NCBI GenBank assembly: GCA_009889625.1
Contig: WTZU01000008.1
Span: 1-48,286 of the forward strand
Direction of reading: 5' to 3'
Source: Candidatus Hikarchaeia archaeon HikBin5
GTDB lineage: Archaea; Halobacteriota; Halobacteria; Halobacteriales; Hikarchaeaceae
DNA length: 48,286 nt
Positions 100 to 45,749 of the stretch are shown here, one piece after another. A program made the translations under genes and the position numbers. The notes beneath the pieces were generated by a model, which was not told the origin of the DNA, did no database searches, and was given only the letters and a program-made list of their open reading frames with translations. Position 1 is the first letter of the stretch, and the number at the start of each line of letters is the position of its first letter.

Positions 100-1560
100 T
101 CACAAAAATTGATCGAATAAGCCAGGGAATTTTTTAGAAACTTTCTGTCGTAGTTCAGGGCTAACCCGGACTACTTCGGGATATTCATCTCTGGCTTCAT
201 AAAGTTTTGTTGCGTCAATAACAACACGGGCATTATAATATCCTTTTTCAGGAGATCCCCTCCCTCCAGGGTAAATATAATCATATGGAATGGGATCATA
301 ACTTGCGCCCAGGGTATAATCTTCAATATGGATATCACGAGGGGGGTGGACGCGAGTGCCAAGTGCCCAGATAACGTCTGATTGGTCAAATACATCGACA
401 TCTTCGTCGACAACTATTATGTATTTTCCCAAGAATACATTTTGAGGCATTTGACTGACTAATTGACCTACTTGTTTTGCATGGCCTGCGTACTCTTGTT
501 TTATTGAAACCACTACCCATAGTCGAGTTGCTCCAGCAGGATCGCACCACACATCTTTGATTCCAGGGACGCCCAATTCCTCAAGAGCATTTGCTATATT
601 TGCAGCCCGGATGGGGCATCTAAAATAAGTTTCTTCTGCAGGTGGTTTTGCAGAGGGCGACCCTGTCAAAATCGGATTATTTCGATAGTAAATTCGTTCT
701 ACGTCGACTACCATTTCTTCTTTTTCACCGCCAGCGTAATAACCAAGGAACTCCCCATAGGGCCCCTCTAATCTAGTTTTGTTGGGAGGGATATAACCCT
801 CAAGTACTATTTCAGCATTTGCAGGGAGTGGAAGTCCAGTTAATGAACTTTGTATAACTTCAACTGGTTTTTCGCGCCACCAACCTACAAAATCATACTC
901 ACAAACTCCATGGGGTATTTCAACAGAAGATGCCCAATATAATTCGGGGTTGATACCACATACTATTGCGATGGGACAGGGTTCGCCGCGATCGTGATAT
1001 TTTTCCATGTGTTCCCTACCGTGTTTTCCACGAGAGGCCAACATTCCTACTTCGTTAGTGGTGTGGATCATGGAACGGTAGGTACCCACATTGACCCATC
1101 CATTGTCAGGATCTTGTGTAATTACGAGATCTGCAGTTCCAATATAGTTCCCACCATCTTTTTCGTGCCACAAGGGAGACGGGAAGGTGGTTACGTCGAC
1201 ATCTTTTCCTTCTTGAATATTTTCCAAAATAGGACCATTTTTGACTATTTTTGGAGGAATTCCACTTCGATTTTTGAGTTTGTGTTGAATCCCTTTTGTA
1301 GTCTCTTTCAAAGTGTATTTTGGATCAAATCCAAATGTCAATGCTATTCGAGAGGGCGAACTAAGTATACAAGAAAGTACGCGGAACCCAGAGGGGTACC
1401 CAGGTATATCATCAAAAAGTACGGCTTCGGATCCAGGGTTGCTCTGATATACATCACTAATAGCACCGATATCCTCTTCGATGTTTGCACCGGAAATCTT
1501 TTTTAAATCATTTAAGTCATCTACTGCTTCAATCCAATCTCGCAGATCTGAGAATGCCAT
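100..1560 (-). CDS. UbiD-family (prenylated-FMN) decarboxylase
   Basis: A 486-residue UbiD/Fdc-type protein, the usual length for the family, which reversibly (de)carboxylates aromatic or alpha,beta-unsaturated acids using prenylated FMN. The expected E-R-E catalytic set is visible: an Arg in GTYR near residue 162, and Glu 265 and Glu 270 in EGPYGE. The N-terminal half holds the GTADLVITQDPDNGWVN cofactor-binding stretch. I start at the ATG at 1560 (MAFSDLRDW) because the longer reading frame up to 1686 would overlap the divergent gene and is low complexity. The substrate cannot be told from sequence: UbiD proper, a menaquinone-type enzyme, or an aromatic acid decarboxylase are all possible. 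No UbiX-type prenyltransferase is in the window. It is divergent from the OCD-family gene. Confidence 0.9.
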   Translation of the reverse strand: MAFSDLRDWIEAVDDLNDLKKISGANIEEDIGAISDVYQSNPGSEAVLFDDIPGYPSGFRVLSCILSSPSRIALTFGFDPKYTLKETTKGIQHKLKNRSGIPPKIVKNGPILENIQEGKDVDVTTFPSPLWHEKDGGNYIGTADLVITQDPDNGWVNVGTYRSMIHTTNEVGMLASRGKHGREHMEKYHDRGEPCPIAIVCGINPELYWASSVEIPHGVCEYDFVGWWREKPVEVIQSSLTGLPLPANAEIVLEGYIPPNKTRLEGPYGEFLGYYAGGEKEEMVVDVERIYYRNNPILTGSPSAKPPAEETYFRCPIRAANIANALEELGVPGIKDVWCDPAGATRLWVVVSIKQEYAGHAKQVGQLVSQMPQNVFLGKYIIVVDEDVDVFDQSDVIWALGTRVHPPRDIHIEDYTLGASYDPIPYDYIYPGGRGSPEKGYYNARVVIDATKLYEARDEYPEVVRVSPELRQKVSKKFPGLFDQFL

Positions 1561-1568
1561 GGTGATTT

Positions 1569-1656
1569 GGAGGTGATGTGAGAAAATATGGATTTTGATT
1601 TTCATTGTGGAGAAGTCAAAAGGTCTTTTTCTGTGCATTTGATAAATAGTTTGTAA
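1569..1656 (+). promoter_or_regulatory. Perfect Shine-Dalgarno and 22-codon upstream ORF before the OCD-family gene
   Basis: GGAGGTGAT at 1569-1577 is a full complement of the usual archaeal 16S 3' tail. Ten nt later an ATG at 1588 opens a 22-codon frame (begins MDFDFHCGEV) that stops with TAA at 1654-1656, one base before the ATG of the next gene at 1658. That gene has no Shine-Dalgarno of its own, so termination-reinitiation coupling is possible. A transcript carrying it would have to start within or at the edge of the divergent UbiD-family gene, which weakens the case. It may be chance. Confidence 0.35.
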
Positions 1657-1657
1657 A

Positions 1658-2743
1658 ATGGCACTTCTTATAGACAATGAGACCACTGAAAAAGTGTTGA
1701 ATATTCCGGATGCCGTAGAGGCAATGGAAAATGCATTTGTCCAACTGAGTAAAGGGAATGCAGCATTTCAGCCTAGAACAGATGTTCTTTCTCCGGTGGA
1801 GGGAAAAGGGGAATTGGATTATTATTGGTGGCACTCCCTTATTGGAGCGACTTTGGACCCTCCAAGACTCGCTTTTCGTTTTGTATCAGATGTGTATAGC
1901 TGGAGGAGAGATACTGAAGGAAAATTGAGAGAAGTGCAATACAATGTAGAAGAGGGAAAATCAATGGGTTTTGTGTTACTTTTTGATTCGGCCAATGGGG
2001 AGATAATAGGATTGCTGAACGACGAATCACTTCAGCACGCAAGGGTTGGTGCCACGGCAGGTGTGGCTTGTAAATATCTCTCTAGGGAAGATTCAAACAC
2101 TGTTGGAATAATTGGATCGGGTGGCATGGCGAAAGTGTATCTAGAATCATTTTTTTCGGTTAGGGAATTGGATCAAGTAAAGGTATATTCACCCACGATT
2201 AGTCACAGGGAGGCATTTGCGGAAGAAATGAGTACGTCATTGGGAATAGATGTTAAAGCGGTTTCTTCAGCCGAGAAGGCCGTGAGTGGTGCAGACATAG
2301 TAGCAACATGTACAAATGCTAGTTCTCCTGTGTTTACTGAAGAATATGTTTCAGAGGGCATGTTTGTGGTGGATACCAAAAGTAGTGAGATCTCCCCTAA
2401 AGCAGAAACCATGTTCGATCAAATTGTAGGGACGACAAGAGAAGCATATCTTGCATCTGAGGATTATGTAGTGGGGCAAAAGAACCTACTTGATAAGCAT
2501 AAACAACTCCATGGAAAGAGAGGATTCGAGATGAAAGAGTATGCTACTTTGAGCGATATAATTCAAGACCCATCAAAAGGGAGAGGAGGAGATGAGGAAT
2601 CTATTTACTGTAATAATCGGTCGACAGGAATTCAATTTGCGGCCATTTGTGATCTAGTCCATAGACGTAGTGTAGAAGAAGGGCTGGGGAAGGAGATTCC
2701 TAGTGAGTGGTTCCAGCAAGATTTACATCGGTCGTATTCGTGA
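1658..2743 (+). CDS. Ornithine cyclodeaminase/mu-crystallin family NAD(P)-dependent protein
   Basis: A 361-residue protein with the OCD/mu-crystallin layout: a dimerisation half, a conserved QHARVGATAG turn near residues 126-135, and a Rossmann domain starting with GIIGSGGMA (about 150-158). It continues to the conserved SGADIVATCTNASSPVF stretch. Family members include ornithine cyclodeaminase, alanine dehydrogenase and ketimine reductases. The segment around residues 70-80 reads LAFRFVSDVYSW, where many amino-acid-specific members have a Lys, so true ornithine cyclodeaminase activity is doubtful. It is divergent from the UbiD-family gene with about 97 bp between starts, suggesting shared control. 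The substrate is unknown. Confidence 0.85.
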   Translation: MALLIDNETTEKVLNIPDAVEAMENAFVQLSKGNAAFQPRTDVLSPVEGKGELDYYWWHSLIGATLDPPRLAFRFVSDVYSWRRDTEGKLREVQYNVEEGKSMGFVLLFDSANGEIIGLLNDESLQHARVGATAGVACKYLSREDSNTVGIIGSGGMAKVYLESFFSVRELDQVKVYSPTISHREAFAEEMSTSLGIDVKAVSSAEKAVSGADIVATCTNASSPVFTEEYVSEGMFVVDTKSSEISPKAETMFDQIVGTTREAYLASEDYVVGQKNLLDKHKQLHGKRGFEMKEYATLSDIIQDPSKGRGGDEESIYCNNRSTGIQFAAICDLVHRRSVEEGLGKEIPSEWFQQDLHRSYS

Positions 2744-2783
2744 GGCGGTTTTATGGGAAGAATGTTGGGCCTATTTGACGAGT

Positions 2784-3206
2784 TCAAGGGCGTTCGACCA
2801 ATTCAATTATATTCCCATCTGGATCGTGTAAATTCGCAATTTTTGCCCCACTTGCAACAGGAAGAGGAGGACTTATGAATTCGATATCTGTGGATAATTT
2901 AGAATACCAATCATCTATGTTTTCTATTTGAAAACATAAATGGGCTAGTCCCACATCGTGTATAGCAGAAGAAGAATTTACATTAGTATTAGGAGGACTA
3001 GAATACTCTTTCAATTCCAATGAGATTCCATCGTTTTCTAGGAATGCTATTTGTGCATTGACGCCATCTAGACCAAGAAGACCATCTTGCGAATCGCTAG
3101 CCTTGAATCGTTTTCGTTCGGAAAAGCCAAAATGAGTACAGTAAAAATTGAGAGATGTTTCTAAGTCAGATACGTTTAATCCAATATGATCAAGAATTGC
3201 GGTCAT
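2784..3206 (-). CDS. VOC (glyoxalase/dioxygenase superfamily) protein
   Basis: A 140-residue protein with two beta-alpha-beta-beta-beta VOC modules. It starts with ILDHIGLNVSDLETSLNFY, whose His is the usual first metal ligand, and ends with HDPDGNIIELVE, whose Glu is the usual last one. ISLELKEY and AHLCF supply the expected middle ligands. The ligand pattern fits glyoxalase I or methylmalonyl-CoA epimerase-type enzymes. No cobalamin mutase or other partner is nearby, so the substrate is left open. It shares strand with the thymidylate kinase upstream (36 bp gap), so the two could be cotranscribed. Confidence 0.85.
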   Translation of the reverse strand: MTAILDHIGLNVSDLETSLNFYCTHFGFSERKRFKASDSQDGLLGLDGVNAQIAFLENDGISLELKEYSSPPNTNVNSSSAIHDVGLAHLCFQIENIDDWYSKLSTDIEFISPPLPVASGAKIANLHDPDGNIIELVERP

Positions 3207-11288: not shown

Positions 11289-12425
11289 ATGGGAGAAGGA
11301 AAACCAGAAAAAAGTAAACGGAGGAATGTTCCGGAAGATGCATGGGATGAGTGGATAGTTGATGCTGATTTCCACCTTAATCTATTTGACTCTAAATCCT
11401 ATTTAGAATATATTGATGACCCTCGTTTGAGGAAAAAAATAGAAGTTGGAGGCATTCCAAAGGGAGTTACTGGGGGTTGGGTGTTCCCGTATGCACATCA
11501 CATTGCAGATTCACTTAATACACAAGGTACGGCGTTGGTTTCAGAAGAAATAGATGGATTAAAAAAGCAGTATGCTATTGATGAAGTGATTGTTGGCCCA
11601 GGAATGATTAACTTACCTACAGCCAGATATCCTGTGATTAAAAATGCAATAGCAAGGGCTTACAATGATTACATAGTGGACAAAGTTATCGATGAAAAAA
11701 GAGGCATTTATGGACTGGCCATCATACCTCAATGGGATCCAGCGGCGTGTGTTGAAGAGATAGAGAGGATGAAAGTTGAAAAGGGGATCGTGGGAGTTCA
11801 AGGTTGGTATAGTCCTCAGACATTGTTTGGAGCCATGGAGTACGAAGATATGTATGAAGAATTGATAAAAGAAAAATTGCCACTAGTGTTACATGGTAGT
11901 GGTTTTACATCTAGATTTGATTTATTGGGAAATTCTATGAAATCGGTTGTAGAGGCGTTAACATTATCTTGGACATATAATGCAATGGCCAACATATTGA
12001 ATCTAATTTTTACAGGGACGTTTGATCGGCACGAGGATCTAAAGGTGGTGATACAAGAAGCAGGGACAAACTGGATTCCATTCGCATCTCTGAGGGCCGA
12101 TGAATGTTACTACGCATTGCCAGAAGATGTGATGCTCTCTCACAGAATGTTTGAAGATGAGAATCAATACTTAAACCATATGCCGAGTGAATATTTTTAT
12201 AAGAATATGTATTACACTACTCAACCGATCGCATTGCCAAGAGATCCAAATCATGTTAAATCCATGTTTGAGATGTGTCGGGCTGCAGAGACGTTCCTAT
12301 ATTCAAGTGACTGGCCACATAACACATTCGACCCCCCGAATTGGTTATTTAATAACAGAGGTATAGACGAAGAGACGAGGACTAGAATTTGTAGTGGGAA
12401 TGCAAAAGAGGTATTTGGGATATAA
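11289..12425 (+). CDS. Amidohydrolase_2 family (ACMSD-like) metal-dependent hydrolase/decarboxylase
   Basis: A 378-residue TIM-barrel protein of the amidohydrolase-related (ACMSD, gamma-resorcylate decarboxylase) family. The N-terminal metal site reads IVDADFHLN (Asp25, Asp27, His29) rather than a full HxH. His202 in PLVLHGSGF and Asp341 in YSSDWPHNTFDPP match the later ligands. A Glu (IQEAGTNW, about 257) sits where many members have His. Such enzymes hydrolyse or decarboxylate ring-derived acids. The Rieske protein gene begins one base after its stop, so the two form an operon. The substrate is unknown. Confidence 0.85.
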   Translation: MGEGKPEKSKRRNVPEDAWDEWIVDADFHLNLFDSKSYLEYIDDPRLRKKIEVGGIPKGVTGGWVFPYAHHIADSLNTQGTALVSEEIDGLKKQYAIDEVIVGPGMINLPTARYPVIKNAIARAYNDYIVDKVIDEKRGIYGLAIIPQWDPAACVEEIERMKVEKGIVGVQGWYSPQTLFGAMEYEDMYEELIKEKLPLVLHGSGFTSRFDLLGNSMKSVVEALTLSWTYNAMANILNLIFTGTFDRHEDLKVVIQEAGTNWIPFASLRADECYYALPEDVMLSHRMFEDENQYLNHMPSEYFYKNMYYTTQPIALPRDPNHVKSMFEMCRAAETFLYSSDWPHNTFDPPNWLFNNRGIDEETRTRICSGNAKEVFGI

Positions 12426-12426
12426 T

Positions 12427-12783
12427 ATGCGAGAAAAGGTTATTGGGAAAATAGAGGATTTCCCAGAAGGAGAAGGAACTGAAATTCGTTTAGGGGGATT
12501 GAAGATAGCCGTTTTTAATCTAGAGGGGAAATTGTATGCTATTCATGATAGTTGCCCTCACAAACATGCCCCATTGCACGAATCAGGATCAAATAGATAT
12601 AATAGTGAAAAGTGCGGAGGATCATTTCTCGGTGGGATAGACTTGGAATTGAAAATGGTCAAATGCCCTTGGCATGGTTTGCGATTTAATCTTGAGACTG
12701 GAGAAAGTCCGGTACTGAAGCGAAAAATACCAGTATACAATGTATTAATCAGAGAGGATGGAGAAGTGGCAGTGGTGGTTTAA
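12427..12783 (+). CDS. Rieske [2Fe-2S] ferredoxin-like protein with an enlarged cluster loop
   Basis: A 118-residue soluble single-domain Rieske protein. The cluster ligands are Cys43/His45 (SCPHKHAPL) and Cys80/His83 (KCPWHGLRF). The spacing between the two ligand boxes is about 34 residues, roughly twice the usual 15-17. The insert contains NSEKCGGSFLGG with an extra Cys. No transmembrane or Tat segment is present, so it is a ferredoxin-type electron carrier rather than a bc1 subunit. The start at 12427 follows the amidohydrolase stop (TAATATG). It overlaps the convergent arcS stop by 4 bp. No oxygenase alpha subunit is in the window. Confidence 0.88.
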   Translation: MREKVIGKIEDFPEGEGTEIRLGGLKIAVFNLEGKLYAIHDSCPHKHAPLHESGSNRYNSEKCGGSFLGGIDLELKMVKCPWHGLRFNLETGESPVLKRKIPVYNVLIREDGEVAVVV

Positions 12784-14558: not shown

Positions 14559-16037
14559 TTAGGAGGATAAGTTGATAAGTTTTACAGCATCTGGCAATGT
14601 TTCTAAAATGAGTTGGGGCCAATTTTCATGTGCAAATGTGAAAGTGGTTTGTGGGTGTAGAGACACCAGAGTTGAAATCCCAGCTACTGCTTGTTGAAGG
14701 GCATTTATGTCAATATGATTAGGAATTTCTGCAGTGAGGGGGTAGGTATGAGAGAGACCAATTGGGAAAGGTCCAAATGGTGGTTTTACATACCAAACCT
14801 CACCATAGTTAGAAAGAATTGAAGAAGAAGTATTGGTTGTCAATAATACATTTTTTCCTATGCGAAATCTAGATAAATTTTTATGGTGCCTGATTATCTC
14901 CGGTCTATAGTGGCTTAGGTCAGAAGTGTGAAAAAAGGTTCCTTTGACGGCTGGATCTTGTTTTTCTAATTGAATCGAATGTCGAAATAGAGCTTTGCAC
15001 CCGTCGAGCATGGCGGGATGAGATCTAGATCTAAGTTCGACTAATTCTAGCAGGCTACCCTCTTTAATTGCAACCTTGATTTTATTTATTTCACTAAGAC
15101 TAACGTAGAGATTGTGCTCTGCAAGCAGAGACTCGCATTTATTTGGTGAAAGATCTCTGAGTTCAGATGGAGTATAAGTGGAGCATATGGGACAGTGGCA
15201 AGGAAAATGATCCATTTCTAAAAGTTGTTTGGTACCTTCAGTAGTAAGATAAGACCCACGTCTAGCATATAGCGCATAGGCTGCTGAATCGAATAGATCA
15301 CACCCAGCGGCTACGGCTAGGGCGAACATCATTGGGTGTCCGGCCCCAAAAAGATGAACTATGGCATCGAGGCCGAGGCCACGTTTAGTGGCCATAATAA
15401 TATTTACTACATCCTGGAACCTGTATTGCGTGAGTAGAGGTACAGCCGCCCCAACTGGGAATACATCAAATCCAAGGGCATATGCATCCGAGGCAGCTTT
15501 TTCACGTAAATCGATATGAGTAGATCCTTGGATTGGAGCAGAGATTAGCATGTCATTTTCGACTAATGTTTTAGACAATTCTAAGCGTTCGGAGGTGGTT
15601 TGTAAATCTAGTTTGGCAACCTCATAAGAGACATCGGGAGGAGTAGGGATATCTAGAGGCGTGGCTATATCAGACCCAATGGCATTTTGGAAATGTATGA
15701 TTTCAGAAGTTGTTACATCCACACTCCCATACTCTGCAAGTTGGAAAGATCCAGAATCGGTCATAATTGCACCAGGGAAATCTAAAAGTTTATGCAATCC
15801 ATTCTCAATTGCTGCATGGTGTAAGTGATCAGTTTGGCGGATAATATAAGAGTTAGTTATGAGTATTTGAACATTGAATTTAGAGGCAAGTTCAGATGGA
15901 GAAATAGTTTGTAATTTTGGATTAATAACAGGGAGAAATGCAGGCGTCTCGACTATTACATTAGACCTAGGAACTCTAAAATTCCCAATCCTACCATTAG
16001 CATCAGAATCTTTGATATCAAAAAGTCCCTGTGTCAT
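14559..16037 (-). CDS. tgtA: ArcTGT: tRNA-guanine(15) transglycosylase (archaeosine pathway)
   Basis: A 492-residue enzyme that swaps G15 of tRNA for preQ0, the first step of archaeosine formation. The nucleophile Asp94 lies in IMTDSGSFQL and a second Asp in LDIPTPPD (about 129). HLFGAGHP is conserved. The zinc ligands are Cys280, Cys282, Cys285 and His308. No C-terminal PUA domain is evident, matching the haloarchaeal split where the PUA is carried by ArcS. It is the first gene of the tgtA-arcS operon. The divergent HyuA-type gene starts about 130 bp away. Confidence 0.95.
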   Translation of the reverse strand: MTQGLFDIKDSDANGRIGNFRVPRSNVIVETPAFLPVINPKLQTISPSELASKFNVQILITNSYIIRQTDHLHHAAIENGLHKLLDFPGAIMTDSGSFQLAEYGSVDVTTSEIIHFQNAIGSDIATPLDIPTPPDVSYEVAKLDLQTTSERLELSKTLVENDMLISAPIQGSTHIDLREKAASDAYALGFDVFPVGAAVPLLTQYRFQDVVNIIMATKRGLGLDAIVHLFGAGHPMMFALAVAAGCDLFDSAAYALYARRGSYLTTEGTKQLLEMDHFPCHCPICSTYTPSELRDLSPNKCESLLAEHNLYVSLSEINKIKVAIKEGSLLELVELRSRSHPAMLDGCKALFRHSIQLEKQDPAVKGTFFHTSDLSHYRPEIIRHHKNLSRFRIGKNVLLTTNTSSSILSNYGEVWYVKPPFGPFPIGLSHTYPLTAEIPNHIDINALQQAVAGISTLVSLHPQTTFTFAHENWPQLILETLPDAVKLINLSS

Positions 16038-16130
16038 TTGATCAATCTAAGTTGTTATGGGTGAAAAATGGTTCGTAAATCATACGAGAGGAGATCGCAT
16101 GATAGAGAAAAATTCAAGTGCGGAAGGGAT

Positions 16131-16141
16131 TTGTATAATTA
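16131..16141 (+). promoter_or_regulatory. TATA-like element of the HyuA-type gene
   Basis: TTGTATAATTA lies about 30 bp before ATG 16168 and 18-20 bp before ATG 16156. Spacing therefore favours 16168 as a leaderless start. It is inside a longer open frame that begins at 16057, and that extension is Lys-rich and unlike HyuA. Confidence 0.45.
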
Positions 16142-16167
16142 AAAAAAAGAAATACATGAGAATAAAG

Positions 16168-18114
16168 ATGGGGAAAAATTTCATTACATTAAATATTGAT
16201 GTAGGAGGAACATTTACAGATGGTTTTTTTGTAAGGGGAAAAGAATCCTCTTCGGCCAAAGTCCCAACCACTGGACATGATTTAACAATTGGTTTTATGG
16301 AATGTATTGAAAATGGGGCTAAAAAAATGGGAATGGAATTATCTGAATTTTTAGCAGAAGCAGATATGGTTAGATTTTCTACTACCATGGGGACGAATGC
16401 CATTATAGAAAAAAAGGGAATGAAGATTGGATTATTGGTTACGTCTGGAGAAGAAGAAAGACTCTACTCTGTGAAAGATGAACTTAAAGTTAGTGATTAT
16501 TTTATTGGGCCGGGGATGATAGAGGAGATAGAAGAGGAAATTAATATAAAAGGGGATATTGTCAAAATTCCGGATAGTGATCAGACCATAGGTGCTGTGA
16601 AAAAATTGCAGGAATCCGGTGCAAGGATGATCGTTATTTCATTGAAGAATAGTTATTGGAATGATGCTAACGAAAGAGAAGTGAAAAGATTAATTCAAGA
16701 AGAATATCCTCGGCATTATTTAGGATCCATTCCCACATTAGCTTCGTATGAGGTATCTTCACGGCCAGATGATTATCGCCGATTGAATACAGTGGTCGGA
16801 AATGCCTATATACATCGTCCGATGAAGGTTTCATTATACAGAGCTGAAGATAAAATAAGATCTCACTCATACAATAGGCCCCTATTCATTGGTCACTCTA
16901 GTGGTGGCGTTGCGGGAGTGGCCAAAACTAGGGCGATAGATACCTTGAATTCGGGCCCTGTCGCAGGTGTATTTGGGGTTAAATCCATTTCTGATGAATA
17001 TCAAACTAGTATCATGGGGGCAGACATGGGAGGTACCAGTTTAGATCTTAGTATTGTACATGATGGAAACCTCCCATTTGAATTAAGCCACAGAATAGAA
17101 GGATTGCCGACACACATTCCAGCGATAGAAGTCAAGACCGTGGGGATAGGAGGAGGATCTATTGCAAAAGTGACGCAAGAGGGGCTGCAGATAGGTCCTG
17201 AGTCTGCTGGAGCAAATCCAGGTCCAGCCTGTTTTGGAAAAGGAGGCAAGATGGCAACTGTGACTGATGCAGATGTGGTCCTGGGTCGGATAGATTCAGA
17301 GTTTTTCCTAGGGGGGAAATTAGAACTATCAAAGGAGAAAGCTCAGATTGCAATTGAAAAACACGTAGCGTCTGAGAAAGGAATTTCGATAGAGATGGCT
17401 GCGGATGAAATAATTAATAAAGTTGAACAAGATATCAAAGAATCTATATTAAAATTAGGATTGAATGGAATTGATACTATTGTGGCATATGGAGGGGCAG
17501 GTCCCATGCATATGACAGGTTTGGTCAAAGAAGAATACATAAAGAAATTAATAATTACGCCATATTCAGCTGTTTTTTCAGCGTTTGGCGAATCTATGAT
17601 GGGAGTTCTACACACATACACGCGACCTTTATTAAGAGGATCGCGTGTGGAGGATTTGATTTCTCAGATGGAAATGGAGGCGAAAAAAGATATGAAATCA
17701 GAAGGATTTGTCGCAAAGGATATAAAATTCGAGGTAGATGCGATAAGTTATGATTCGAAGGGGCGCATTGATAAATTCGTATCTGCACAGGGAGAGGAAG
17801 AAGAGGGATCAGTGACACTGAGACTTCATGCTAGAGGAAAAACTCCGATATCCACATTTACTCGGGAAGTGTGCGGGGAATCAGATCCATCATCTGCCAT
17901 GATTGGAAATAGAGAAGTTATATGGGGAAATGAGATAATCGATACCCCTATATTCGAATTGGAAAAATTAAATAAAGGTGCAATTGTAGAGGGTCCGGCA
18001 ATAATTGAATCGACAGACACGACAATACCGATATTGGAAAAAACATTCTTGTGGGTAGATGGGATCGGGAATGGAATCATAGGATCAAAGCGATCCGATG
18101 TGATTAAATCTTAG
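16168..18114 (+). CDS. HyuA-type hydantoinase/oxoprolinase/acetone carboxylase-family ATPase subunit
   Basis: A 648-residue ASKHA-fold protein of the HyuA family, which activates carbonyl or lactam substrates with ATP. Nucleotide-binding motifs are NIDVGGTFTDG near the N-terminus, ADMGGTSLDLSIV, and GIGGGSIAKV followed by ESAGANPGPACFG. FSTTMGTNAIIE is also diagnostic. Family members pair with a HyuB subunit of about 550-600 residues. None is next to it or elsewhere in the window, and no oxoprolinase-type fusion is present. ATG 16156 is an alternative start. It converges on the URO-D-like gene with a 24-bp gap. The substrate is unknown. Confidence 0.88.
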   Translation: MGKNFITLNIDVGGTFTDGFFVRGKESSSAKVPTTGHDLTIGFMECIENGAKKMGMELSEFLAEADMVRFSTTMGTNAIIEKKGMKIGLLVTSGEEERLYSVKDELKVSDYFIGPGMIEEIEEEINIKGDIVKIPDSDQTIGAVKKLQESGARMIVISLKNSYWNDANEREVKRLIQEEYPRHYLGSIPTLASYEVSSRPDDYRRLNTVVGNAYIHRPMKVSLYRAEDKIRSHSYNRPLFIGHSSGGVAGVAKTRAIDTLNSGPVAGVFGVKSISDEYQTSIMGADMGGTSLDLSIVHDGNLPFELSHRIEGLPTHIPAIEVKTVGIGGGSIAKVTQEGLQIGPESAGANPGPACFGKGGKMATVTDADVVLGRIDSEFFLGGKLELSKEKAQIAIEKHVASEKGISIEMAADEIINKVEQDIKESILKLGLNGIDTIVAYGGAGPMHMTGLVKEEYIKKLIITPYSAVFSAFGESMMGVLHTYTRPLLRGSRVEDLISQMEMEAKKDMKSEGFVAKDIKFEVDAISYDSKGRIDKFVSAQGEEEEGSVTLRLHARGKTPISTFTREVCGESDPSSAMIGNREVIWGNEIIDTPIFELEKLNKGAIVEGPAIIESTDTTIPILEKTFLWVDGIGNGIIGSKRSDVIKS

Positions 18115-18138
18115 ACCATATATCAAAGGGAAGAGGGA

Positions 18139-19035
18139 CTAAAGAGACCCCATCAATTCATGAATTGTTTCAGGTTGGGCGGATGGAGAAATAGTCCATT
18201 CACTAGATAGAAGTGCATCACTGGGGAGTGTATTAAGGAATTTTTGGAAAGGTTCAGATCCAGAACATAAGATGGAATTGGGGATTCCAAATCCAAAATA
18301 GATATCAGAAAGGGATGCAGATTCCATGCATTCTTGAAGGGAATCGGTTGATCCAGTTATCAAATCAAATCCCAAATCTGCGGCAATTTTAATTTGGTGA
18401 GAAGAAGTTCGCTTGGTTATTACTATTCCAATGGCTTCGTAATGAGAAAGGATATTGGGCAAGGGAGAGACTGTTTGGGTATAAAGTGAATCTTGGACAG
18501 GTAGCCCATTTGGTGCAAGAATTGCAACCCCATCGGCTCCAGATTCTAAATAAGAGTTAGTAAGTAGAGATAGCGTTTCTTCTATGACGAAGAGGACCTC
18601 CTCATGGATAGATGGATCATTTTTAGCAGAAGTAGAAAGTAGAGAATTTGAGATAATTTCAGGACTGCAAATTCCAGCTATAATAGGACAATTGAGAGAA
18701 TTTTTTAATCTGGATATTACAGATAAAATTTGGGGGATTCTACCGCTAGTTAAGATAGAATCTATATTGATATCTAAAGCGTCTTCGATAGTTTTTATGG
18801 GACCGTCTTCTTGAGAAGGAGAATATCCCATCGCAGTTGCCTCTAGTGTTGTGTCAAAAGAGGTACAAATGACAGGGAGATTAAACAGATCTGCGGCATT
18901 ATATAGAGATTCATAAAGATTATTTTCACTATATTCCATTTCGATCGTGTTAAAAGAAGAGAGTTTTGCAGCGAGCTCATAGGTCCAGATTAGAGGAGAG
19001 GGGTTGTTTCCAAAAAGAGATATGAATGAGTCCAT
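18139..19035 (-). CDS. URO-D/MtaA-superfamily-like protein with degenerate metal site
   Basis: A 298-residue protein with the uroporphyrinogen decarboxylase/corrinoid methyltransferase fold pattern. TTLEATAMG fits the EAEALG box, then GRIPQILSVISRL, CPIIAGICSPEIIS, GADGVAIL and a C-terminal barrel. The MtaA/MtbA zinc ligands are not visible: the H-x-C strand reads GIVITKRTSS, and the final G-C box reads SSEWTISPSA. It lacks the N-terminal arginine loop of HemE. It is therefore a divergent member of unknown function. It sits 14 bp after an OFA-type transporter gene and is probably cotranscribed with it. Confidence 0.7.
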   Translation of the reverse strand: MDSFISLFGNNPSPLIWTYELAAKLSSFNTIEMEYSENNLYESLYNAADLFNLPVICTSFDTTLEATAMGYSPSQEDGPIKTIEDALDINIDSILTSGRIPQILSVISRLKNSLNCPIIAGICSPEIISNSLLSTSAKNDPSIHEEVLFVIEETLSLLTNSYLESGADGVAILAPNGLPVQDSLYTQTVSPLPNILSHYEAIGIVITKRTSSHQIKIAADLGFDLITGSTDSLQECMESASLSDIYFGFGIPNSILCSGSEPFQKFLNTLPSDALLSSEWTISPSAQPETIHELMGSL

Positions 19036-19049
19036 AATCTATATTGATT

Positions 19050-20360
19050 TTAAGAGGTTGAAGGTGGGCGAAGAAGCAATGCGAATCCACCTGCAACCAA
19101 AGCCAATCCGGCACCGATTAAGAAAGTTGCAGTCCAACCAGCAGAGACAACAAGCCATCCCGCGACGGCTCCGCCAAATATGCCCCCCCATACTTTTCCC
19201 GAGTAGAGAAGTGCATAGTTTGCAGAGGAATTTTTTGAACCATAATAATCTGCTACGACACTAGGGAAAAGTGTATATTGAGGACTCCAGAAAAATGTTG
19301 CTATGAAAACTGAGAAAATAAACCCAATACTAAAACTCATGTAGCCAAAAAAGAGAGTCCCGAGGAGACCCAATCCACAGAGAGAAAATGAAATTGCCAT
19401 TGCACGTTCACGGCTGAAACCAAGTGAGATTCCAGGGATGCGATCGTCGGATATGTATCCCACAACTAATCTTCCGACTCCGCCCGCGATGGGAAGTATA
19501 GTTGCAGATGCAGTTACTGCGGCAAATGTCAAGCCTAGATTTTCAGCTAGTAAGACTACTTTTGCCGTTAAGGTCAGGCCGGCGCCGCTTACTGCAACAA
19601 ACATGAAATACATTAACCAGAATTGCCATGTTTTGATCATTTGTCCGGATGTGAACTCACCAGGAGTGGATGGAGAGGGACTAGATTTTGTTTCGGGGGG
19701 AGAGCTAGTAGTTTTTGTTTTGAGCCAATTTTCAGGAGGGTCACGGAGGATCAATGCCCCTACCATAACCCCAATTAGTATCAATAGACCCATGTTTTGG
19801 AGAACGTCTGGATAGCCAGCTGCTGTTGCATTTACCCTGACATAGGGTATGAAAAGTGCACTTCCACCGGCGAATGCCATTGTTCCAATGCCCGTGGTGA
19901 GTCCTCTTCGGTCTGGAAACCATTTTAAGGCCGTGTTTACAGCGATGGTATAGATGATACCTACGCCTATTGCACCTATAGAATATAGGATATATATCTG
20001 CCATACTTCAGTTGCTTGAGAAATTCCAATATAACCTCCACCAGCTAGAATACCTGAAAGAAGAGTCAATTTCTGCGGGCCATATCTATCTCTCCACCAT
20101 CCAACGGGGAATTGAGATCCTGCTTGAAATATAACAAAAAGAGTGAATACTACGCCTAACACGCTTAGAGGAACACCCAAGCTAGATGCCATGGGACCTT
20201 CAATAGAAGACCAAACATATTGATAAGGACTTACCAAGCCCATCATTACTGCTGCGGCTATAATTTGCCACCATCGAGAAGACAAATATCTTCGTCCGAA
20301 TATAGTGAAACCTAATATTTCACTAGCCATGGCTGAATAATTGGGAGGAGAACTGTTCAT
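19050..20360 (-). CDS. MFS transporter, oxalate/formate antiporter (OFA)-like
   Basis: A 436-residue membrane protein with about 12 hydrophobic segments. The MFS loop 2-3 signature appears as VGWWRDRYGPQKL (about residues 88-100). A long polar central loop near 215-240 (KTKTTSSPPETKSSPSPS) separates the two halves. SSRWWQIIAAAVMMG at the start, and the general pattern, fit the OFA family of carboxylate carriers, but specificity cannot be assigned. A second Met at 20330 is an alternative start. It leads the URO-D-like gene in a probable two-gene operon and follows trmY by 55 bp. Confidence 0.88.
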   Translation of the reverse strand: MNSSPPNYSAMASEILGFTIFGRRYLSSRWWQIIAAAVMMGLVSPYQYVWSSIEGPMASSLGVPLSVLGVVFTLFVIFQAGSQFPVGWWRDRYGPQKLTLLSGILAGGGYIGISQATEVWQIYILYSIGAIGVGIIYTIAVNTALKWFPDRRGLTTGIGTMAFAGGSALFIPYVRVNATAAGYPDVLQNMGLLILIGVMVGALILRDPPENWLKTKTTSSPPETKSSPSPSTPGEFTSGQMIKTWQFWLMYFMFVAVSGAGLTLTAKVVLLAENLGLTFAAVTASATILPIAGGVGRLVVGYISDDRIPGISLGFSRERAMAISFSLCGLGLLGTLFFGYMSFSIGFIFSVFIATFFWSPQYTLFPSVVADYYGSKNSSANYALLYSGKVWGGIFGGAVAGWLVVSAGWTATFLIGAGLALVAGGFALLLRPPSTS

Positions 20361-44987: not shown

Positions 44988-45749
44988 CTATTTTTTACCG
45001 CGTGCGGCAGAAATTGATCTTGCAATCATTCCTGCTTGGGCGCCTGCGATGAAACCGGCATCTATGTTTACAGTTGTAAGTACTGCGCACGATTGTAGCA
45101 TACTAGTCAGGGCCGCTTCTCCAGATCCGCCGAAACCATAACCAGTAGAAACGGGCAACCCAATTACGGGGGTATCTACAAGTCCTGCGACTAGTGATGG
45201 TAAAGTGCCCTCGCGTCCTGCGGCAACAATTGCTACATCTGCAGATCTAATGAGTTCAATTTGATCTAGTAATCTATGTAAACCTGCGACACCGACATCA
45301 TTTATTTGGACTATATTTGCACCCATTTCGGAGGCGATTATGGCGGCCTCTTCGGCGATAGGACGATCACTAGTTCCTGCAGTTACTATTGCGACAGTGG
45401 CATTGAGAGTGGGAGATTCAAATTCAGAGGTCTTTGCTATTATTGTCCGGGAGAGAGGATGGGACTTTACTTTGATTGATTGTGGGAAATGTTCTTGGAT
45501 TGCCTTTTGAATTTCAGGAGTTGTCCTAGTGACAATTGCCCGCCCAATTGTTTCTATCGCTATGGAAGCAAATGTTATTATTTCTTCCATAGTTTTACCG
45601 TCGCATAGAATACCTTCAGGTACGCCGTGCCTATGTTCTCTAGCTGTATCAAACCTACCAGCTTCGCTAGTGGCATATCCTAATAATTTTGCTTCGGCTT
45701 CGGCGATAGTAATTTTACCATCGGATAGGTCTTGAAGCACATCATGCAT
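44988..45749 (-). CDS. larB: LarB-family nickel-pincer cofactor synthase (AIR carboxylase-like)
   Basis: A 253-residue protein. The C-terminal domain has the PurE-like fold (VAIVTAGTSDRPIAEEAAI, VAIVAAGREGTLPSLVAGL, DTPVIGLPVSTGYG). The N-terminal part (ITIAEAEAKLLGYATSEAGRFDTAREHRHGVPEG) is the LarB-specific extension. LarB carboxylates and hydrolyses nicotinic acid adenine dinucleotide in the first step of the nickel-pincer cofactor of lactate racemase-type enzymes. LarC, LarE and a LarA-type enzyme are not in the window. The ATG at 45749 gives MHDVLQDL. Confidence 0.88.
   Translation of the reverse strand: MHDVLQDLSDGKITIAEAEAKLLGYATSEAGRFDTAREHRHGVPEGILCDGKTMEEIITFASIAIETIGRAIVTRTTPEIQKAIQEHFPQSIKVKSHPLSRTIIAKTSEFESPTLNATVAIVTAGTSDRPIAEEAAIIASEMGANIVQINDVGVAGLHRLLDQIELIRSADVAIVAAGREGTLPSLVAGLVDTPVIGLPVSTGYGFGGSGEAALTSMLQSCAVLTTVNIDAGFIAGAQAGMIARSISAARGKK

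Follow-up and report, generated by a model that had tools for sequence, protein, structure and literature searches.

A HyuA-type ATPase and a degenerate URO-D-like protein as predicted alpha' and epsilon subunits of a divided Apc-type ketone carboxylase in Hikarchaeia

Gene layout in the window and on a second contig

Three neighbouring genes are found in the window, as we call the whole stretch of 48,286 nucleotides that was analysed:

16168..18114, plus strand: HyuA-type ATPase, 648 aa; predicted alpha' (ApcA-like, bicarbonate-kinase) subunit of a ketone carboxylase
18139..19035, minus strand: degenerate protein of the URO-D/MtaA superfamily, 298 aa; predicted epsilon (ApcE-like) subunit
19050..20360, minus strand: OFA-type MFS carboxylate carrier, 436 aa; TIGR00890

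All three genes have open frames and family matches. The HyuA-type protein matched the Pfam families Hydant_A_N, Hydantoinase_A and Hydant_A_C. Its frame is open from position 16057, and its two nearest homologues, 648 aa each, begin at the codon equal to 16168; the start at 16168, and with it the earlier coordinates, is therefore correct. The HyuA and URO-D-like genes converge with a gap of 24 bases, and the URO-D-like and OFA-type genes run in the same direction, 14 bases apart, and are likely co-transcribed. The third protein matched TIGR00890 (the oxalate/formate antiport family) at 1.5e-77 and 261 bits, below the curated cut-off of 374.85, and would be an MFS carrier of the OFA type that is not assignable as an oxalate/formate antiporter by this cut-off. 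No HyuB stands beside the window HyuA. The first-pass annotation had drawn attention to precisely this, a HyuA without HyuB next to OFA-type and URO-D-like genes, and the three open reading frames and their coordinates are confirmed. The layout recurs in another species of the genus. Within the limits of broken contigs, HyuA and URO-D are also adjacent in genome G002, and OFA and URO-D in G003; the OFA gene adjoins the URO-D-like gene in three congeneric genomes.

Hikarchaeia (Marine Group IV) are aerobic, streamlined marine archaea and possible users of aromatic compounds (PMC7599335). The recovered genome comprises 1.07 Mb on 36 contigs and is 70.5% complete, and all Hikarchaeal data come from incomplete MAGs; a scan of genome contigs found only two close relatives. 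Contig C7 of this genome carries its one recovered HyuB and another HyuA; the window genes lie on contig C35. Judging by the distances to the contig ends, the window pair is unlinked to the C7 genes and at least about 22 kb away. In order of transcription, C7 carries a double cupin, the HyuB, an SDR dehydrogenase, a 124-aa CxxC...CxxC protein and the HyuA. About 0.5 kb beyond the C7 HyuA, on the same strand and with one small opposite-strand gene between, lies a gene of the BKACE (beta-keto acid cleavage enzyme) family (PF05853, 3.6e-43). No CoA-ligase gene was seen beside the C7 cluster. Two paralogous double-cupin proteins (L036:12597-13766 and 16018-17196), which bear a distant likeness to gentisate 1,2-dioxygenase, are encoded on either side of an AAA-ATPase gene next to the C7 HyuB gene.

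Two classes of HyuA

Against the NCBIfam models of the acetophenone carboxylase (Apc) subunits, the window HyuA scored higher with ApcA (4.4e-119, 399 bits) than with ApcC (345 bits). On C7, the HyuB matched ApcD with 577 bits, the HyuA matched ApcC with 759 bits and the small cysteine protein matched ApcB with 150 bits. In the PDB, the C7 HyuA and the small protein both come closest to chains of the Apc core 5L9W, the latter matching 5L9W_C at 1.4e-35. Both HyuA proteins were placed by a maximum-likelihood tree built from 63 HyuA sequences, among them the crystallised subunits of Apc and Acx; several of its branches are long and, as the program warned, letter composition varies. The window HyuA falls within an alpha' clade of 16 rows (support 100/100) that also contains 5L9W ApcA and, from each Apc-type cluster examined, the first HyuA. 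The C7 HyuA belongs to another clade (11 rows, support 100/99), together with 5L9W ApcC and the second HyuA of six haloarchaeal clusters, and hydantoinase-type and acetone-carboxylase HyuAs are placed outside both. In a quick HyuB tree, the C7 HyuB joins the HyuBs of the same six clusters (SH-aLRT 95).

The three ASKHA ATP motifs are intact in the window HyuA, and the ATP motifs are intact in the C7 HyuA as well. The R/KERiDsxG fingerprint distinguishes alpha from alpha' and adjoins the beta interface of alpha (PMC5214803); it is found in the C7 HyuA (RERINFKG) and is missing from the window HyuA (EEEINIKG). By our judgement, which is not a computed value, the window HyuA is very probably an alpha' subunit. 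In terms of the Apc structure (PMC5214803), sequence comparison would make the C7 proteins beta, alpha and gamma and the window protein alpha'. The alpha-gamma-beta stretch then spans about 15.1-20.5 kb of C7, with the SDR gene between gamma and beta. Acetone carboxylase (acxABC) and hydantoinase (hyuAB) have homologous alpha and beta subunits, but neither possesses an alpha' or an epsilon, and the window HyuA lies outside both of their clades. Orphan HyuA genes elsewhere may likewise be alpha' subunits rather than partnerless hydantoinases.

The URO-D-like protein and its haloarchaeal relatives

The window URO-D-like protein is the sole match to the URO-D family in the recovered genome, and it scored 16.1 bits against Pfam URO-D, for which the cut-off is 23.9. 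With NCBIfam it matched MtaA at 3.4e-10 and, weakly, ApcE (0.009, 15 bits); the ApcE match is 8.6e-4 for the copy in the sister species and 6e-8 for a copy in an operon of Haloterrigena. The superfamily is shared with MtaA (methylcobamide:CoM methyltransferase, 4AY7; profile comparison 1.8e-11), but the window protein is shorter, is linked to a carboxylase and does not have the zinc ligands: in the alignment, the His-x-Cys...Cys residues of MtaA are replaced by I, K and W, and methyltransferase chemistry is therefore not expected. An AlphaFold model built from three sequences reached a pLDDT of 37 and was discarded.

On plasmid NZ_CP084319.1 of Haloterrigena alkaliphila (150.6-158.3 kb) the genes follow the order IclR, alpha', URO-D, gamma, alpha, beta, and the run alpha'-URO-D-gamma-alpha-beta is contiguous in six halophilic archaea (Haloterrigena and five more genomes). 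Like the Hikarchaeal genome, the Haloterrigena cluster has all five predicted subunit types, with the same URO-D type beside alpha', and the window HyuA is about 41-44% identical to the haloarchaeal alpha' proteins. The cluster differs in being one operon-like run behind an IclR regulator, with no OFA carrier alongside. The operon URO-D copies adjoin alpha' in 6/6 of the haloarchaeal clusters, and the window protein matches them by profile at 2.8e-7 over 268 columns. There is one earlier mention of an Apc-type gene in halophilic archaea, on fosmids from the Dead Sea, where it was interpreted as laterally transferred (PMC3236060).

Could the URO-D-like protein instead be an enzyme in its own right that serves the OFA carrier, such as a C1 or demethylation protein, with only the HyuA belonging to a split carboxylase as its alpha'? 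MtaA is the curated model that it matches best, with ApcE behind, its gene converges with HyuA and has the same orientation as the carrier gene, and the Hikarchaeal sequences on their own do not match the bacterial epsilon-position proteins significantly (0.087). Against this stand the profile match to the operon copies, the replaced MtaA zinc ligands and the position of its nearest relatives outside the genus, which among 394 genomes are all located between alpha' and gamma in Apc-type clusters. We consider such a separate enzyme improbable, and in our judgement, again one that was not computed, the window protein is probably the epsilon subunit.

The epsilon subunit of Apc was called elusive and was without a structure in 2017 (PMC5214803). 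Matches to the ApcE model across the phylum are mostly in methanogen genomes, and since two that were checked are bona fide URO-D family proteins, ApcE can be placed in the URO-D superfamily, which is the only use of these methanogen matches. We found no convincing curated family match for the proteins at the epsilon position in Apc-type clusters of Halorientalis and bacteria (L072:18921-19808, L073:14085-14894, L074:14095-14904 and L075:13991-14818). With a merged archaeal URO-D profile, they gave an hhalign value of 8.6e-6, while seven unrelated control families all remained above 0.04, and most of them have an N-x3-HY motif in common with the window protein. Because the match is to the merged profile and not to the Hikarchaeal sequences alone, we regard this link, which is one of sequence, as suggestive. 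A search of mainly open-access literature, which does not prove absence, found no paper linking acetophenone carboxylase to a protein of the uroporphyrinogen decarboxylase family. The URO-D placement of epsilon, together with a single URO-D type that tracks the enzyme across archaea, makes the role, fold and partner set of epsilon testable.

The first-pass annotation had proposed looking for co-occurrence in relatives, and the outcome bears on its idea that HyuA, URO-D and OFA form a self-contained module for uptake and activation that needs no HyuB. A profile made of the window protein, the sister-species copy and the Haloterrigena copy matched in 10/394 Halobacteriales genomes, and a strong gamma (ApcB, below 1e-43) is present in the same 10/394. 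The window-type alpha' occurs in 9/10 of them; the exception is G003, a genome of 58% completeness in which the URO-D gene is cut off at a contig end. These counts have to be read with the caveat that 3/10 of the URO-D matches were built into the profile and that the haloarchaeal clusters are few and physically linked; the informative point is that Hikarchaea retain all parts despite their separate loci. Weaker gamma matches in other haloarchaea (1e-16 to 1e-4) were set apart, and the HyuAs of those loci that were placed in the tree (G508, G415, G693) fall outside the Apc alpha and alpha' clades.

The three genes are indeed adjacent in the genus and have no HyuB alongside. Nevertheless, in the sampled genomes the HyuA/URO-D pair is found only together with an Apc-type gamma, with alpha and beta adjoining it, no carrier was seen beside the haloarchaeal clusters examined, and the alpha' class is only known to partner an alpha that is bound to beta (PMC5214803). 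On phylogeny and co-occurrence we rejected the self-contained module, which is highly improbable; a biotin-free enzyme divided over two loci is most likely instead. The same grounds led us to reject as scarcely tenable an ordinary two-subunit hydantoinase or oxoprolinase made of the window HyuA and the C7 HyuB, which would fit the HyuA family membership and the single HyuB of the recovered genome, but C7 already supplies a HyuA of the alpha type that binds beta, and the window HyuA is outside all hydantoinase-type clades and without the beta-interface fingerprint.

That the HyuA works with a HyuB encoded elsewhere had been the other suggestion of the first-pass annotation, and it is now the most likely one, the HyuB being that of C7. 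The annotation had coupled a distant HyuB of matching phylogeny with a neighbourhood that is not conserved; such a HyuB was found, but the HyuA/URO-D neighbourhood is kept even in distant haloarchaea. Both observations fit once the two proteins are taken to be alpha' and epsilon.

A proposed divided carboxylase and its pathway

We propose, with a probability of roughly 0.82, that the window HyuA and URO-D-like proteins are the alpha' and epsilon subunits of an Apc-type ATP-dependent ketone carboxylase whose alpha and beta subunits and small zinc-protein gamma are encoded on C7. Phylogeny, co-occurrence and motifs define the subunit classes; from these we infer, and judge to be probable, that the five subunits assemble into one complex. 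The NCBIfam scores are all far under the equivalog cut-offs (399 of 1250 bits for ApcA, 150 of 250 for ApcB, 759 of 1500 for ApcC, 577 of 1500 for ApcD and 15 of 450 for ApcE), and we therefore speak of an Apc-type enzyme, not demonstrably an acetophenone carboxylase. Acetophenone carboxylase proper spends 2 ATP on the carboxylation of acetophenone. Here the substrate may be a compound other than acetophenone, and a methyl or aryl ketone is a candidate to which we would give slightly less than even odds. What began as a HyuA without HyuB has become a concrete prediction, namely that an uncultured marine archaeon with a streamlined genome, and with a possible use of aromatic compounds (PMC7599335), has a biotin-free carboxylase of five subunits.

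The Apc of Aromatoleum aromaticum (apcABCDE, PDB 5L9W) offers the closest comparison of parts. It too has HyuA-type alpha and alpha' subunits, a HyuB-type beta and a four-cysteine gamma; its epsilon, of which the URO-D-like protein is the probable counterpart, is placed in the URO-D superfamily by profile matches. Unlike in Aromatoleum, the Hikarchaeal genes are at two loci (C35 and C7) with no contiguous apcABCD(E) order, the URO-D gene adjoins alpha' and does not follow beta, an SDR gene separates gamma from beta, and a BKACE gene is nearby with no CoA-ligase gene seen. Contiguous gene order is a usual feature of Apc and not a mechanistic one. Genes of the AMP-binding family adjoin two of the haloarchaeal clusters and the Halorientalis cluster.

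If the enzyme works like the Apc of Aromatoleum, the ketone would be phosphorylated in its enol form by alpha, and bicarbonate by alpha' to give carboxyphosphate. Epsilon would close off or bridge the complex and thereby let both activated substrates meet and yield a beta-keto acid. The roles of alpha, alpha' and epsilon are proposals even for the Aromatoleum enzyme (PMC5214803). The SDR encoded on C7 could supply the ketone from a secondary alcohol. BKACE enzymes convert a free beta-keto acid and acetyl-CoA to acetoacetate and acyl-CoA, and the nearby BKACE could stand in for a CoA ligase. Together, the SDR within the C7 group and the BKACE close by suggest a route from secondary alcohol to ketone to beta-keto acid and finally to acyl-CoA and acetoacetate. 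The carrier is the weakest part of the proposal: it could import the substrate or move a carboxylate, and that it serves the carboxylase pathway at all is a tentative link, somewhat doubtful in our judgement.

Food for speculation is how the two activated intermediates would be brought together over the 50 A between the kinase sites. Apc epsilon might be a URO-D barrel turned to a new use: with its zinc site lost, it would now form a chamber or channel joining carboxyphosphate or CO2 with the phospho-enol ketone. The Hikarchaeal alpha' and epsilon would then be a separately encoded 'bicarbonate arm' coupled with an alpha-beta-gamma 'ketone arm', and BKACE would act next in place of a CoA ligase and thiolase. 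We regard this scenario, taken as a whole, as unlikely.

Other genes of the window deserve mention. At 44988-45749, a 253-aa protein has an AIR-carboxylase (PurE-like) domain in its C-terminal half; Pfam gave no match for the N-terminal half. At 11289-12783, the genes for an amidohydrolase-2 protein and a Rieske [2Fe-2S] ferredoxin overlap, an arrangement kept in the sister species; the alpha subunit of a ring-hydroxylating oxygenase (PF00848), sought in the recovered genome as a partner of this ferredoxin, was not found. Finally, the stretch at 100-3206 begins with a gene for a UbiD-family decarboxylase (100-1686, minus strand, with all three UbiD domains), which stands next to an ornithine-cyclodeaminase-like gene and a glyoxalase-fold gene and possibly belongs to further aromatic or quinone metabolism.
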